Below, one piece after another: positions 56,709 through 61,059 of a stretch of 64,000 nt of DNA. Each line of letters begins with the position of its first letter. Position 1 is the stretch's first letter. A program made the position numbers and the translations under genes. The notes beneath the pieces are model-generated. The model was not told the DNA's origin. It saw nothing but the letters and a program-made list of their open reading frames with translations, and searched no databases. The DNA is from Cellulomonas sp. S1-8 (GTDB lineage Bacteria > Actinomycetota > Actinomycetes > Actinomycetales > Cellulomonadaceae), in contig NZ_CP110806.1 in assembly GCF_026184235.1 (NCBI RefSeq), forward strand, positions 2,914,001-2,978,000. Direction: 5' to 3'.

Positions 56709-56742
56709 ACGAGGGCACCGTCGCGCGCGACGGTGCCCTCGT
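56709..56742. terminator. Perfect 34-nt palindrome terminator
   Basis: Starting ACGAGGGCACCGTCGCG, the 34 bases are fully self-complementary. It is 42 bases after the zinc-ribbon stop and isolates that gene from the ThiF-like gene. Confidence 0.85.
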
Positions 56743-56834
56743 CATGTCCGGCGACGCCGTCGGCGCCGCCGCGGCGGCGCGGGCCTGTGGACGACGCCGC
56801 ACACCCACGACCTCGTCGGTGCCATCGTGACCCG

Positions 56835-57902
56835 GTGACCCGTCCGACCCCCGCGCCCCTGCTGCTGCGACCCGGCCTGCGTGTCCTGCCACGCGCGGAC
56901 GACGAGGTCCAGGTCGGGACGGACCCGCGCTGGGCCGTGCGGCTCGTGGGGCTGCGCCCCGCCGAGGCGCGGCTGTGGGCGGGCGTCGACGACGCGACCG
57001 ACCTGGCCGCACTGCCGGCGCGCGCCCGGGCGGTGGGCGCCGACGCCGCGTCCGTGGCCGCGACGGTCGCCGAGCTGTGCCAGGCCGGCCTGACGCGGGC
57101 GCGCCCCGACCCGACGACCACGGCCCGCGGCCCCACCGCGGCGGACGCCGCCGCCTGGACGCTGCTGCGGCCGGACGCGACGGGCGACGACGTGGTCGCG
57201 CGTCGGGCGGACGCGGTCGTGGGCGTCGTGGGACTCGGCCCGACCGGGCTGGGCATCGCGCAGCACCTGGCCGTCGCGGGCGTCGGCCGCGTGCTGCTCG
57301 ACGACGACACGCCGGTGCGCTCACCCGACGTCGCCGCCGGCGCGCACCGCTGGGCCGACGTCGGGGTGCCGCGCGCGGCCGCCGCGCGGCGTGTGCTGCG
57401 GGACGCCGCCCCCGGGGTGCACGTCGACGGGGACGGCGACCCGGACGTCGTGGTGGTCGTCGAGCACGAGGCCGCCGACCCGTGGCGCGCCGCCCTGCTG
57501 ATGGCCGACGACGTCCCGCACCTGTCGGTCGTCGTGCGCGTCGCCGACGCCCTGGTCGGCCCGCTCGTGCGCCCCGGCACCGACCCCTGCCTGCGCTGCC
57601 TGGACCTGCACCGCGCGGACGCCGACCCCGGGTGGCCGGCCGTCCTGGCCGCGATCGGCCGGGGCCGCGGCGACCGTGCGACCCCCGCGGGTGAGGTCGG
57701 GGTGCTGGCCGGGGCGTGCGCGGCCCTCGCGGCGGCGCAGGTCCTCGCCCTGCTCGCCGGGGCCACGCCCGCTCTGTGCGGCGCGACCGTCGAGCTCACG
57801 CTGCCCGACCTGGTCGCCCGCGAGCGCCGGTGGCACGTGCATCCGGGGTGCGGGTGCGTGACACCCCCGGGCGCGACGCACGCCGGGCCGCGCGAGGGGT
57901 GA
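56835..57902 (+). CDS. ThiF/E1-like protein
   Basis: A 355-residue protein. The first 150 residues are a conserved actinobacterial domain of unknown role (LLLRPGLRVLPRADDEVQVGTDPRWAVRLVGL). Residues about 155-310 are a ThiF-type Rossmann domain (VVGVVGLGPTGLGIAQHLAVAGVGRVLLDDD), and RPGTDPCLRCLDLHRADADPGWP has a CxxC. The adenylation residues of true E1 enzymes are not all clear. By position it corresponds to M. tuberculosis Rv3196. The GTG start has no ribosome site. Similar proteins are sometimes grouped with leader-peptide-binding partners of azole-forming enzymes, but no such cluster is present here. Confidence 0.85.
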   Translation: MTRPTPAPLLLRPGLRVLPRADDEVQVGTDPRWAVRLVGLRPAEARLWAGVDDATDLAALPARARAVGADAASVAATVAELCQAGLTRARPDPTTTARGPTAADAAAWTLLRPDATGDDVVARRADAVVGVVGLGPTGLGIAQHLAVAGVGRVLLDDDTPVRSPDVAAGAHRWADVGVPRAAAARRVLRDAAPGVHVDGDGDPDVVVVVEHEAADPWRAALLMADDVPHLSVVVRVADALVGPLVRPGTDPCLRCLDLHRADADPGWPAVLAAIGRGRGDRATPAGEVGVLAGACAALAAAQVLALLAGATPALCGATVELTLPDLVARERRWHVHPGCGCVTPPGATHAGPREG

Positions 57903-57960
57903 CCTCGCACGACCCGGCGTGGGTGGTGGTGCCGCGACGACGACCGGACGGGCCGTCGCC

Positions 57961-58299
57961 TCAGGCGGCGGCGTCCTTGCGCGGCCGGCCACGGCCACGC
58001 TTCGTCGGGACGACGACGCCGCCGACGAAGACCTGACCGCCCCAGACGCCCCAGGGCTCCGCCCGGTCGATGGCGCCGGCGAGGCAGCCCTCGATGAGCG
58101 GGCACTCACGGCACAGAGCCTTGGCACGCTCCACGTCGGCCTGACGCTCGGCGAACCAGAGCTCGGGGTCGGACGACCGGCACGGCATGAGGTCGGCGAC
58201 CATCTGGTCGAACTGGTCGTTCGTCGTCGCGGTGCTGCTGGTGGGCCAGGGACCCGATCCGCCCTGGTTCACGGTGTCGAGCAGCGTCGAGAGCCGCAC
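57961..58299 (-). CDS. whiB7: WhiB7-type iron-sulfur transcription regulator
   Basis: A 112-residue WhiB protein. Four Cys ligands for a 4Fe-4S cluster are in MPCRSSDPELWF, ALCRECPLIEGC. EPWGVWGGQVF is the conserved turn, and TKRGRGRPRKDAAA is an AT-hook, which among WhiB proteins marks WhiB7. WhiB7 binds the primary sigma factor and AT-rich DNA upstream of the -35, and switches on intrinsic antibiotic resistance. GTG start behind AGGAGGA. The 370-base leader with an upstream ORF and a terminator shows that expression is controlled by attenuation. It is next to uvrD2, as in mycobacteria. Confidence 0.95.
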   Translation of the reverse strand: MRLSTLLDTVNQGGSGPWPTSSTATTNDQFDQMVADLMPCRSSDPELWFAERQADVERAKALCRECPLIEGCLAGAIDRAEPWGVWGGQVFVGGVVVPTKRGRGRPRKDAAA

Positions 58300-58384
58300 G
58301 ATGTCCTCCTGGTGTCCTACGGGGTGAGCTGTGGGTGCCGGATCAGGGCCGCTCGCCCCCGGTGGAGACCGGGTGACATGAGAA

Positions 58385-58418
58385 AGGCCGCGGATCCGAG
58401 ATTCGGACTCCGCGGCCT
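58385..58418 (-). terminator. Attenuator terminator in the whiB7 leader
   Basis: On the minus strand, AGGCCGCGGA (58418-58409) and TCCGCGGCCT (58394-58385) form a perfect 10-bp stem, extended by TCCGA/TCGGA, followed by TTTCTC. It is 20 bases after the upstream ORF stop and 86 bases before the whiB7 start. Confidence 0.9.
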
Positions 58419-58438
58419 GCCTGCAGATGAGGCTGGTG

Positions 58439-58603
58439 CTACAGAGTCCTGTGTCGAAGATCGGTGCTGGACGTCGTGTGACGCTGACCGCGCTTGCGCC
58501 CGGCAGCGGGCACAGCGATCCCCCGGAAGGAGCCGCCGGTGGGCGCGAGGATGCAGGCGTACGCGTGCTGCGCAGCTGCCATCTCGATCGTGATGCTCTT
58601 CAC
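58439..58603 (-). CDS. whiB7 upstream ORF (54-residue leader peptide)
   Basis: GTG 58603, behind a very strong GAGGAGGTGGGAG, opens a 54-codon frame starting MKSITIEMAAAQHAYACILA, ending in a basic stretch (GRKRGQRH) and stopping 20 bases before the attenuator hairpin. In mycobacteria and other Actinobacteria whiB7 is induced when ribosomes stall in such a leader ORF and the terminator cannot form. Location, signals and spacing all fit. The peptide itself need have no other function. Confidence 0.85.
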   Translation of the reverse strand: MKSITIEMAAAQHAYACILAPTGGSFRGIAVPAAGRKRGQRHTTSSTDLRHRTL

Positions 58604-58671
58604 GTGCTCCCACCTCCTCTCCAGGGACGGGTCCTGCCTCTCGGCAGCACCCCGCGAACTCGGACGTGACC

Positions 58672-58709
58672 ACAGTAGGGCGGCCCGTCGCGGCGTCACA
58701 AGCAATTAA
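58672..58709 (-). promoter_or_regulatory. whiB7 leader promoter with AT-rich WhiB7 box
   Basis: Minus strand: TTGTGA (58701-58696) and TACTGT (58677-58672) with an 18-base spacer. Directly upstream of the -35 is TTAATT (58709-58704), the AT-rich patch that the WhiB7 AT-hook is known to contact. The patch includes the TAA stop of uvrD2 (58708-58706). Confidence 0.8.
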
Positions 58710-60718
58710 CGGAACTTCGTCCGACCCGCTTCTCCGGTGCCGGGCGAGGGCGCGTCGGCGACCACCCGCAGCAGCGCGTCGCCGTACTCCCGCAGCCGTG
58801 TCTGGCCCAGGCCCTGCACGTACCGCAGGTCCGCCGGTGCGGTCGGCATGGCGGCCGCGACGGCCTCGAGGGCCACGTCGGGCAGGACGCGGAACGCGGG
58901 CACACCCCGCTCGTCGGCGACCTGCGCGCGCCACTGCCGCAGGCGGTCGAGGACGGCCGGGTCCGCGGCGGCCGACGCGCGGCGTCCGGCCCCCCGCCCG
59001 GCGTCCTCGCCGGGCCAGAGCCCCGCCAGGAAGCGGGAGCGCGTGCGTGACGCGCGTGAGCCCGGCGTGCGCGCGGCGGCGAACGACAGCTCCAGGTGAC
59101 GCCGCGCCCGCGTGACGCCGACGTACAGTAGGCGACGCTCCTCGGACACCGCGGCCTCGGTCTGGGCGAGCGAGATCGGCAGCAGTCCGTCCGACACCCC
59201 GGCGAGGAAGACCGCGTCCCACTCCAGGCCCTTCGCGGCGTGCAGCGACGCGAGGGTGACGCCGTCGACCGTGGGGGCGTGCTGCACCGACGCGCGGTCG
59301 TCGAGCTCGGCGACGAGATCGGGGAGCGTCGCGCTCCCGCGCGTCTCGACCAGGTCGTCCGCCAGCGTGACGAGCGCCTGCATCGCGTCCCACCGCTCGC
59401 GGGCGGCCCCGCGCGCCGCCGGCGGCTGCGGGGCCCAGCCCGCGGAGGTCAGGATGTCGCGGGTCGTCTGCCCGAGCGGCACGTCGGGGTCGGCGGACCT
59501 CGCCCCGCCGCGCAGCAGGACGAGCGCGTCCCGCACGTCGCGCCGCGCGAAGAACCGTTCGCCGCCGCGCACCTGGTAGCCGAGGCCCGCGGCGGCCAGC
59601 GCCTGCTCGAACGCCTCGGACTGCACGTTGGTCCGGTAGAGCACGGCGATCTCGCTGGCCGGCACGCCGGACGCGACGAGGCGCGCGGCGCGCGCGGCGA
59701 TCCCGGCCGCCTCCGCCTCGTCGTCGTCGTAGCCGGTGAAGCGCACCTGCGGACCGTCCGGCTGCTGCGCGACGAGGTGCAGCGGCACGGGGTCGCCCGG
59801 ACGTCGCGTGGCCGTGAGCACGCGGTTGGCCAGCCCGACGACCTGCGGCGTCGAGCGGTAGTCGCGCACCAGGCGCACGACCTGCGCACCCGGGTGCTTG
59901 CCGGCGAACGTCAGCAGGTGGTGCGGCGTCGCACCCGCGAAGGAGTAGATCGTCTGGCTCGGGTCCCCCACGACGCACACGTCGTGCCGACCGCCCAGCC
60001 ACTGGTCCAGCAGGTACTGCTGGAGCGGGCTGACGTCCTGGTACTCGTCGACCACGAAGTGCCGGTACTGCGTCCGCACCTCGTCCGCGACCTCGCCCCG
60101 CTGCGCGAGCATCGCCGCGAGCAGCAGCAGCACGTCCTCGAAGTCGATGACGCCGCGCTCCGTCTTGACGTCCTCGTACGCCGTGATCAGCCGGGCGACC
60201 GCCTGCGCGTCCTGGCCGGCCGGCGCGGGCCGCCGCACGGCCGCCGCTGCCCGTTCGTAGTCCTCCGCGGTGACGAGCGACACCTTGGCCCACTCGATCT
60301 CCGAGGACAGGTCGCGCACCGCGATCCGGTCGACCGCCACCCCCACCCGCCGCCCCGCCTCCGCGACGAGCGTCGCCTTCTGCTCCGCGAGCCGCGGGGG
60401 CGCGCCACCGACGACCCGGGGCCAGAAGTGGCCGAGCTGGCGCAACGCCGCCGCGTGGAAGGTGCGGGCCTGCACGCCGCTCGCCCCCAGGTCACGCAGC
60501 CGCACCCGCATCTCGCCGGCGGCCCGCGCAGTGAACGTCACGGCCAGGACCGACGCCGGCCGGTACACGCCGGTCCGGACGCCGTAGGCGATCCGGTGCG
60601 TGATCGCGCGGGTCTTGCCCGTGCCCGCACCCGCGAGCACGCAGACGGGTCCCGTCAGTGCGGTCGCGACGGCGCGCTGCTCGGGGTCGAGCGCGTCGAG
60701 GAGGGAGTCGGCGGACAT
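58706..60718 (-). CDS. uvrD2: UvrD2-type DNA helicase with HRDC domain
   Basis: A 670-residue superfamily 1A helicase. LAGAGTGKTRAITHRIA is Walker A, VTFTARAAGEMRVRL motif Ia, VVDEYQDVSPLQQYLL motif II, VGDPSQTIYSFAGA motif III, VRLVRDYRSTPQVV motif IV, TLASLHAAKGLEWDAVFL motif V and RRLLYVGVTRARRHLELSF motif VI. Residues about 575-660 form the HRDC domain (LRYVQGLGQTRLREYGDALLRVVADA). The length and HRDC match UvrD2 (Rv3198c). The frame is open further upstream, but ATG 60718 gives the family start MSADSLLDALDPEQRAVA. The last codons overlap the whiB7 promoter. Confidence 0.94.
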   Translation of the reverse strand: MSADSLLDALDPEQRAVATALTGPVCVLAGAGTGKTRAITHRIAYGVRTGVYRPASVLAVTFTARAAGEMRVRLRDLGASGVQARTFHAAALRQLGHFWPRVVGGAPPRLAEQKATLVAEAGRRVGVAVDRIAVRDLSSEIEWAKVSLVTAEDYERAAAAVRRPAPAGQDAQAVARLITAYEDVKTERGVIDFEDVLLLLAAMLAQRGEVADEVRTQYRHFVVDEYQDVSPLQQYLLDQWLGGRHDVCVVGDPSQTIYSFAGATPHHLLTFAGKHPGAQVVRLVRDYRSTPQVVGLANRVLTATRRPGDPVPLHLVAQQPDGPQVRFTGYDDDEAEAAGIAARAARLVASGVPASEIAVLYRTNVQSEAFEQALAAAGLGYQVRGGERFFARRDVRDALVLLRGGARSADPDVPLGQTTRDILTSAGWAPQPPAARGAARERWDAMQALVTLADDLVETRGSATLPDLVAELDDRASVQHAPTVDGVTLASLHAAKGLEWDAVFLAGVSDGLLPISLAQTEAAVSEERRLLYVGVTRARRHLELSFAAARTPGSRASRTRSRFLAGLWPGEDAGRGAGRRASAAADPAVLDRLRQWRAQVADERGVPAFRVLPDVALEAVAAAMPTAPADLRYVQGLGQTRLREYGDALLRVVADAPSPGTGEAGRTKFR

Positions 60719-60798
60719 GATCGATGAGTCTCCCAGCCCCCACCGACAGCGCGTGCGAGGATCTGTGGACGAGAAGCCCGTCAGCACTGCGAGGAACC

Positions 60799-61059
60799 AT
60801 GACGACCACCACGCCCGCACCGGGCACCGTGACGATGTACTCCACGACCTGGTGCGGCTACTGCCACCGCCTGCGCAAGCAGATGGACTCCGCCGGCATC
60901 GCGTACGACGTCGTCGACATCGAGCAGCAGCCCGCGGCCGCGCAGTTCGTCGAGTCCGTCAACGGCGGCAACCAGACCGTGCCGACCATCGTGTTCCCCG
61001 ACGGGTCCGCCGCGACCAACCCGTCCCTCGCGCAGGTCCGCGAGCGCCTCGGCGTCTGA
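60799..61059 (+). CDS. Mycoredoxin (glutaredoxin-like)
   Basis: An 86-residue glutaredoxin-fold protein. VTMYSTTWCGYCHRLRKQMD contains the CxxC redox motif (CGYC), TVPTIVFPDG the cis-Pro loop. In Actinobacteria this protein is mycoredoxin-1 and uses mycothiol. Divergent from uvrD2 and convergent with nudC, exactly as Rv3198A lies in M. tuberculosis. GAGGAA precedes the ATG. It could serve as reductant for the arsenate reductases in this genome. Confidence 0.92.
   Translation: MTTTTPAPGTVTMYSTTWCGYCHRLRKQMDSAGIAYDVVDIEQQPAAAQFVESVNGGNQTVPTIVFPDGSAATNPSLAQVRERLGV

Follow-up and report, generated by a model that had tools for sequence, protein, structure and literature searches.

A whiB7 leader in a Cellulomonas-type genome with the features of a WhiB7/WblC attenuator and a possibly hidden ribosome site

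The leader that precedes whiB7 in the window (the whole stretch of 64,000 nucleotides analysed here) is very probably a transcription attenuator of the WhiB7/WblC type, a further member of this known actinobacterial switch, in a Cellulomonas-type genome. It is most likely a general sensor of translation and not a device for peptide-specific arrest. Two layers can be distinguished in such a sensor. The first, in which coupled translation leads to termination, is supported by the switch already described and by co-variation among relatives. The second, in which a hidden Shine-Dalgarno (SD) sequence and a pause of RNA polymerase act at the first ribosome, is put forward as a hypothesis. Intrinsic antibiotic resistance of actinobacteria has WhiB7/WblC as one of its hubs, and this gives interest to how one leader reads so many unrelated drugs as well as starvation.

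The leader runs on the minus strand, from the side of a uvrD2-like helicase gene to whiB7, in a host genome of 4.5 Mb whose nearest named relatives, judged by WhiB7, are Cellulomonas. The upstream neighbour (ORF 58706-60820) encodes a UvrD-type helicase with an HRDC domain and is probably uvrD2; past it lies a mycoredoxin gene on the plus strand at 60724-61059 (TIGR02200, 111.5 bits against a cut-off of 89.5). A ThiF-family gene at 56733-57902 is convergent, and its match to TIGR03882 (TOMM precursor leader peptide-binding protein) is sub-threshold, at 32.2 bits against a cut-off of 36.9. The whiB7 product is the best of five matches in the genome, and EPW-GVWGG, four Cys residues and an RGRP hook can be read off its translation; the available part of PMC10727445 lists EPW with GVWGG, four Cys and an AT-hook as WhiB7 motifs. 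On domain and motifs, a WhiB7 orthologue stands downstream of the leader. The initial annotation had described a promoter, a strong ribosome site, a 54-codon upstream open reading frame (uORF), an intrinsic terminator and then whiB7; all of these are present, the promoter as a promoter-like pair, and the positions it gave are exact (Table 1).

Table 1 Features of the whiB7 leader, in window coordinates
Feature	Position	Strand	Basis or remark
Candidate WhiB7 autoregulation site, AT-rich TTAATT	58709-58704	-	2 bases before -35; sequence, similar layout in relatives' rows
-35 TTGTGA	58701-58696	-	Sequence; layout in relatives
-10 TACTGT	58677-58672	-	Sequence; relatives
5' hairpin, upstream of SD	58652-58629	-	Fold and alignment
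uORF Shine-Dalgarno AGAGGAGGTG	58620-58611	-	7 nt before GTG; sequence
uORF, 54 codons and TAG, GTG start	58603-58439	-	Sequence/translation; relatives
Anti-SD block GCGCCCACC, codons 20-22 of uORF	58546-58538	-	Complementary to uORF SD; predicted fold adds CTCC 58532-58529
Pause-like block CGGGGGATCGCTGTGCCC	58525-58508	-	G-11/G-10 58522-58521, T-3 58514, Y-1 58512, G+1 58511
Antiterminator strand R2 GGACTCTGT	58449-58441	-	Last uORF codons, into stop codon; 9 bp with 58413-58405
Intrinsic terminator	58418-58385	-	Fold; 5' arm is partner of R2
whiB7 ribosome site AGGAGG	58310-58305	-	Sequence; consensus of relatives
whiB7, GTG start, 112 aa	58299-57961	-	PF02467, 58.5 bits, cut-off 23.6

Neither promoter hexamer comes close to the E. 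coli consensus, and the two are separated by a spacer of 18; transcription would start near 58667-58665. A simple scan for promoter and terminator flagged neither in this leader, so both calls rest on the layout in relatives and on the fold. The same promoter layout is seen among the relatives' rows listed. For autoregulation by WhiB7, the part of PMC10727445 at hand gives the rule of an AT-rich stretch 3 bp upstream of the -35. Downstream of the promoter, the fold of 58622-58662, which holds the 5' hairpin, has an energy of -19.4 kcal/mol (z -2.0), and in an alignment of the window with 41 of 73 available relatives all of its predicted pairs (4/4) show changes on both sides. Most near loci share a GUCC near the likely 5' end (58665-58662); the bases after it are usually UUG or UG, and the window has GUCCGAG. 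No significantly co-varying partner was found for it among the pairings tried with the pause-like block (p 0.10), R2 (0.85) and the SD (0.57).

Two sets of relatives were assembled. The near set comprises 110 leaders, namely the window, 80 named relatives and 29 further ones from the genus. The uORF was placed in 108 of them (95 distinct), and the remaining two, L092 and L093, also display it. The SD was a search criterion for this placement, as was the terminator arm in most cases, so the presence of an SD in these relatives is no independent evidence. The wide set of 134 loci (L115-L248) was drawn from the order and class. Here an automatic rule, which agreed with hand placement in 44/44 cases, placed the uORF in 92 of 125 loci outside the window's family and left 33 without; seven of these 33 were set by hand, giving 99 distinct uORFs from 19 families, with 26 loci lacking a placement. 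Group names for families are guesses: f37 looks Streptomyces-like and f22 Mycobacteriales-like, and the names for f38 and f45 are guessed in the same way. The uORFs of L032 and L098 hold an in-frame repeat of the ALAPIGG-coding stretch, which also duplicates an anti-SD-like GCGCCCATC. L041, recorded as Sphaerisporangium cinnabarinum, has a leader of Cellulosimicrobium type, and L017, recorded as Cellulosimicrobium cellulans DE0111, one that resembles the leaders of Cellulomonas hominis CS1; both records are probably mislabelled.

By its fold, a terminator lies between uORF and gene. The hairpin begins 20 nt past the uORF stop, and the fold of 58381-58424 reaches -29.4 kcal/mol (z -5.5), with none of 200 shuffles equally stable; the U tract, CCUUUCUCAU, is weak. 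As an antiterminator, the final codons of the uORF are predicted to pair with the 5' arm of this terminator, GGACUCUGU with GCGGAGUCC, over 9 bp including two G-U pairs, and this pairing is the minimum-energy fold once the 3' arm is omitted. From the letters, antiterminator and terminator appear mutually exclusive. Among the 95 distinct near uORFs, 89 had the arm by the search pattern and could be compared, and 83 of these gave a contiguous-pair score of at least 6, with G-U counted half. Over 52 leaders the mean is 7.0 predicted pairs. In L097, L174 and f38 an altered terminator arm is matched by an altered partner, and native partners compared with swapped ones gave p 0.034 when the last 24 nt of the uORF were used and 0.06 for the last 39 nt. 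Synonymous recoding gave no signal for this pairing (mean z -0.2, window +0.9), with a recoding pool that contained the same codons. Taken together, these results support a predicted antiterminator in which the end of the uORF pairs with the 5' arm of the terminator. Five leaders from Flavimobilis and Georgenia (L057, L059, L066, L069 and L072) show a candidate uORF, and a terminator arm of the common sequence was not found in them by pattern; they possibly carry another form of attenuator.

The initial annotation had pointed to the mycobacterial switch as a precedent. That likeness holds for the mycobacterial and streptomycete switch alike, with a uORF and SD in a long leader, and it extends to the predicted antiterminator, which had not been named. 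A search of 57000-60000 against Rfam returned 0 matches with E up to 1, and on that search the leader matches no described RNA family.

In the mechanism we propose, a ribosome that trails RNA polymerase to the uORF stop would cover the antiterminator strand, and whiB7 would be kept off by formation of the terminator; the arm that starts 20 nt further on would remain free for the terminator. Where translation is slow, is stalled upstream of about codon 45, or has never begun, the antiterminator would form and whiB7 would be made.

A possible second layer came to light within the uORF itself, where codons 20-22 are complementary to the SD. According to a pair-probability table for 52 of 57 selected leaders, the SD and this block form a mean of 3.3 pairs, and more than 1.5 in 63% of leaders. 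In 200 synonymous recodings this pairing has an energy of -16.0 +- 0.46 kcal/mol, and the native value is -19.4; the block is the best-pairing window in only 26/52 uORFs. Since the pairing was noticed after the fact, it was tested further. Native partners paired better than swapped ones by 1.3-1.95 kcal/mol (median p 0 of 400; representatives of 17-32 clusters), and among 20 pairs of elements this was the sole one with p<0.01, against the two R2 values given above and 0.10-0.998 for the other 17. The difference recurred in new families (51 uORFs; -2.6 to -2.9 kcal/mol, median p 0 of 500) and across the 99 uORFs, one per family, from 19 families (-2.35, median p 0 of 300, i.e. p<1/300). By family, p was 0.003 in f37, 0.0005 in f38, 0.001 in f17 and 0.003 in f22; the signal was absent in f45 (0.115), f8 (0.87) and the Promicromonosporaceae-type group (0.78). 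A test on ungapped columns with 31 distinct combinations was not significant (p 0.24), with changes on both sides in L021/L022 and L030 only. Our hypothesis is that codons 20-22 pair with the SD of their own uORF and so keep it hidden.

The anti-SD block stands 21-13 nt before the pause-like block, and CAGGGGNNNGCTSTGYCC comes after the anti-SD block; of 57 selected leaders, 52 were aligned by score and five dropped. The 12-nt motif GGNNNNNSTSYG at 58522-58511, 15 nt past the anti-SD block, fits the consensus for pausing of RNA polymerase. Pause sites have base preferences at -11 and -3. Their core consensus is G-10 Y-1 G+1, as given in the available part of PMC9291695 from E. coli data, which limits the comparison. 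In register, G-10 and G+1 are found in 52/52 leaders and Y-1 in 51/51. The T at -3 is the wobble base of a small-residue codon, and it is present in 51/51 protein-anchored rows from 57 tried, a count inflated by the selection of the 57 leaders, which had excluded A and C at this position. The codons concerned are GCT (36), GGT (7), ACT (5), CGT (2) and AGT (1); in 36 ORFs of the window, the T share of the same boxes is 2.1% for GCT, 10.6% for GGT, 0.5% for ACT, 9.8% for CGT and 1.8% for AGT. L031, outside the 51 anchored rows, is an exception (TCG), seven f38 rows have C at -3 while keeping G-10, Y-1 and G+1, and L075, a named Cellulomonas, is without the block. Counts of the 12-nt motif were compared with synonymous recodings: 68 of 95 near uORFs carry it against 11.1 in recodings (maximum 21), 20 of 26 in f37 against 3.4 (maximum 8), and 18 of 73 outside f37 against 3.7, of which f17 alone contributes 6/9 against 0.6. 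In the first wide set the motif occurs in 12 of 51 uORFs, against 6.2 in recodings (maximum 14) whose pool included the motif. A polymerase pause at this motif is possible.

Other readings of these two elements were weighed. It is quite conceivable, though we rate it below even, that the mid-uORF block is an RNA contact or some other protein or DNA site and not a pause site: the YCC after G+1 is likewise conserved, beyond the published core consensus. No tested partner co-varies with the block, though, the 5' end being the best. The possibility that CAGGGGNNNGCTSTG is an internal SD or a second start was rejected, as the f37 form is without such an SD (AGGGG) and CTG, GCG and CCG replace GTG, and so was a hairpin of GGG with YCC, which is lost in rows where GGG is GGC. 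The complementarity between SD and block could also follow from GC-rich, biased sequence. Besides the ungapped test, two results favour this: the predicted exposure of the SD changes little (0.35 to 0.25 across 52 loci; 0.56 to 0.13 in the window), and the signal is weak in the window itself, where an unanchored scan for SD pairing gave z -0.6 (group means about -0.9, Promicromonosporaceae-type 0.0). Against it, 17 of the 20 element pairs did not go below p 0.10, and native partners outdid swapped ones between families; we consider composition an unlikely explanation.

At the level of the peptide, the initial annotation had suggested a new stall site. Its suggestion that the uORF peptide differs from the mycobacterial one agrees with our comparison with the sampled Mycobacterium-like peptides (f22, by guessed assignment). 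For a new stall site there is no support. In peptide-specific arrest, the nascent LAPT..FRGIAVP in the exit tunnel would stall the ribosome at one codon, with or without a drug, and this block does recur among Cellulomonas-type uORFs, with a similar G-T-G-L-S in those of f37. In erm-type arrest-peptide uORFs, the amino acids at the stall site are conserved independently of codon choice. Here the wobble base is fixed while its codon encodes five residues, the next codon encodes four (V, L, A, P) and always ends in G, and other families have unrelated uORF peptides. The GACTC core of the antiterminator is read in frame 0 (53), 2 (32) and 1 (7) among 108 uORFs including duplicates, and therefore appears to be kept as RNA. 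Arrest by the peptide is thus improbable. The conserved parts of the uORF seem to behave as RNA, with the peptide apparently a by-product of constraints on that RNA; slow translation of any kind, or none at all, should therefore signal. Alanine sensing was reportedly proposed for mycobacteria by Poulton in 2024, and a codon-specific amino-acid sensor of that kind was considered here. Alanine accounts for 9 of the 54 uORF codons, which is not striking for such a genome, and no residue looked enriched when the near-leader peptides were read by eye. Starvation for amino acids is said to induce whiB7/wblC in the available parts of PMC11550727 and PMC12121999, in favour of such a sensor, which we nevertheless hold to be improbable as well. 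Even the label of ribosome stalling is inferential, because antibiotic-induced stalling in the whiB7 uORF had not been put to the test according to the part of PMC12121999 at hand.

The uORF attenuator of WhiB7/WblC has been described by Lee 2022 and Burian & Thompson 2018, as cited in the available parts of PMC11550727, PMC10727445 and PMC12121999. In these accounts, the leader described here shares with it whiB7, the uORF, the intrinsic terminator, the antiterminator formed by uORF and terminator, and the AT-rich site before the -35; from lineage to lineage, the letters of peptide and antiterminator vary. The predicted self-pairing of the SD and the pause-like block go without mention for whiB7/wblC in the available portions of PMC11550727, PMC13236596, PMC12421871, PMC4128351, PMC13393426, PMC9226507, PMC6336406, PMC9291695, PMC10727445 and PMC12121999, and no publication on either appeared among the matches listed, as titles and abstract starts; Lee 2022 and Poulton 2024 fall outside these statements.

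Returning to the general translation sensor, its second layer would act as polymerase pauses right after codons 20-22 emerge, the outcome hinging on whether the first ribosome loads and catches up; a hidden SD together with a pause would sharpen the switch at this first ribosome. More broadly, we tentatively suggest, as an idea that may well fail, a checkpoint shared by many actinobacterial whiB7/wblC leaders. The SD would be open until the uORF's own codons (mostly about 8-25) emerge, polymerase would then pause at the conserved consensus site, and if no ribosome had loaded in time the uORF would be locked and whiB7 on. If true, the switch senses lost initiation as well as stalling. With a hidden start site and a checkpoint for polymerase, a leader could sense translation in general without peptide recognition, and both elements yield base-level predictions.

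The hisL and leuL attenuators of E. coli are amino-acid-specific, and without leader translation they favour termination, unlike what is proposed for the leader described here. They resemble it in having a G-10 Y-1 G+1 pause in the leader, and the leuL pause was proposed to synchronise translation and transcription (PMC9291695, in part). To go by the part of PMC9226507 available, the vmlR leader of Bacillus likewise combines a uORF, an antiterminator and polymerase pausing in an antibiotic response, but it uses a NusG-dependent TTNTTT pause, a very short uORF (MIN) and an anti-antiterminator around the uORF. In Streptomyces coelicolor, the leaders of are5sc and tiaA also have uORFs for antibiotic response, and the ribosome sites of these uORFs overlap with antiterminator hairpins; the leaders belong to other genes, with uORFs of 3-9 codons and the ribosome site within the antiterminator itself (available sections of PMC12421871). 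In the toiL/topAI uORF of E. coli, gene and leader are unrelated to those described here, yet a single uORF reads several classes of ribosome-targeting drugs (PMC12121999, in the portion available).
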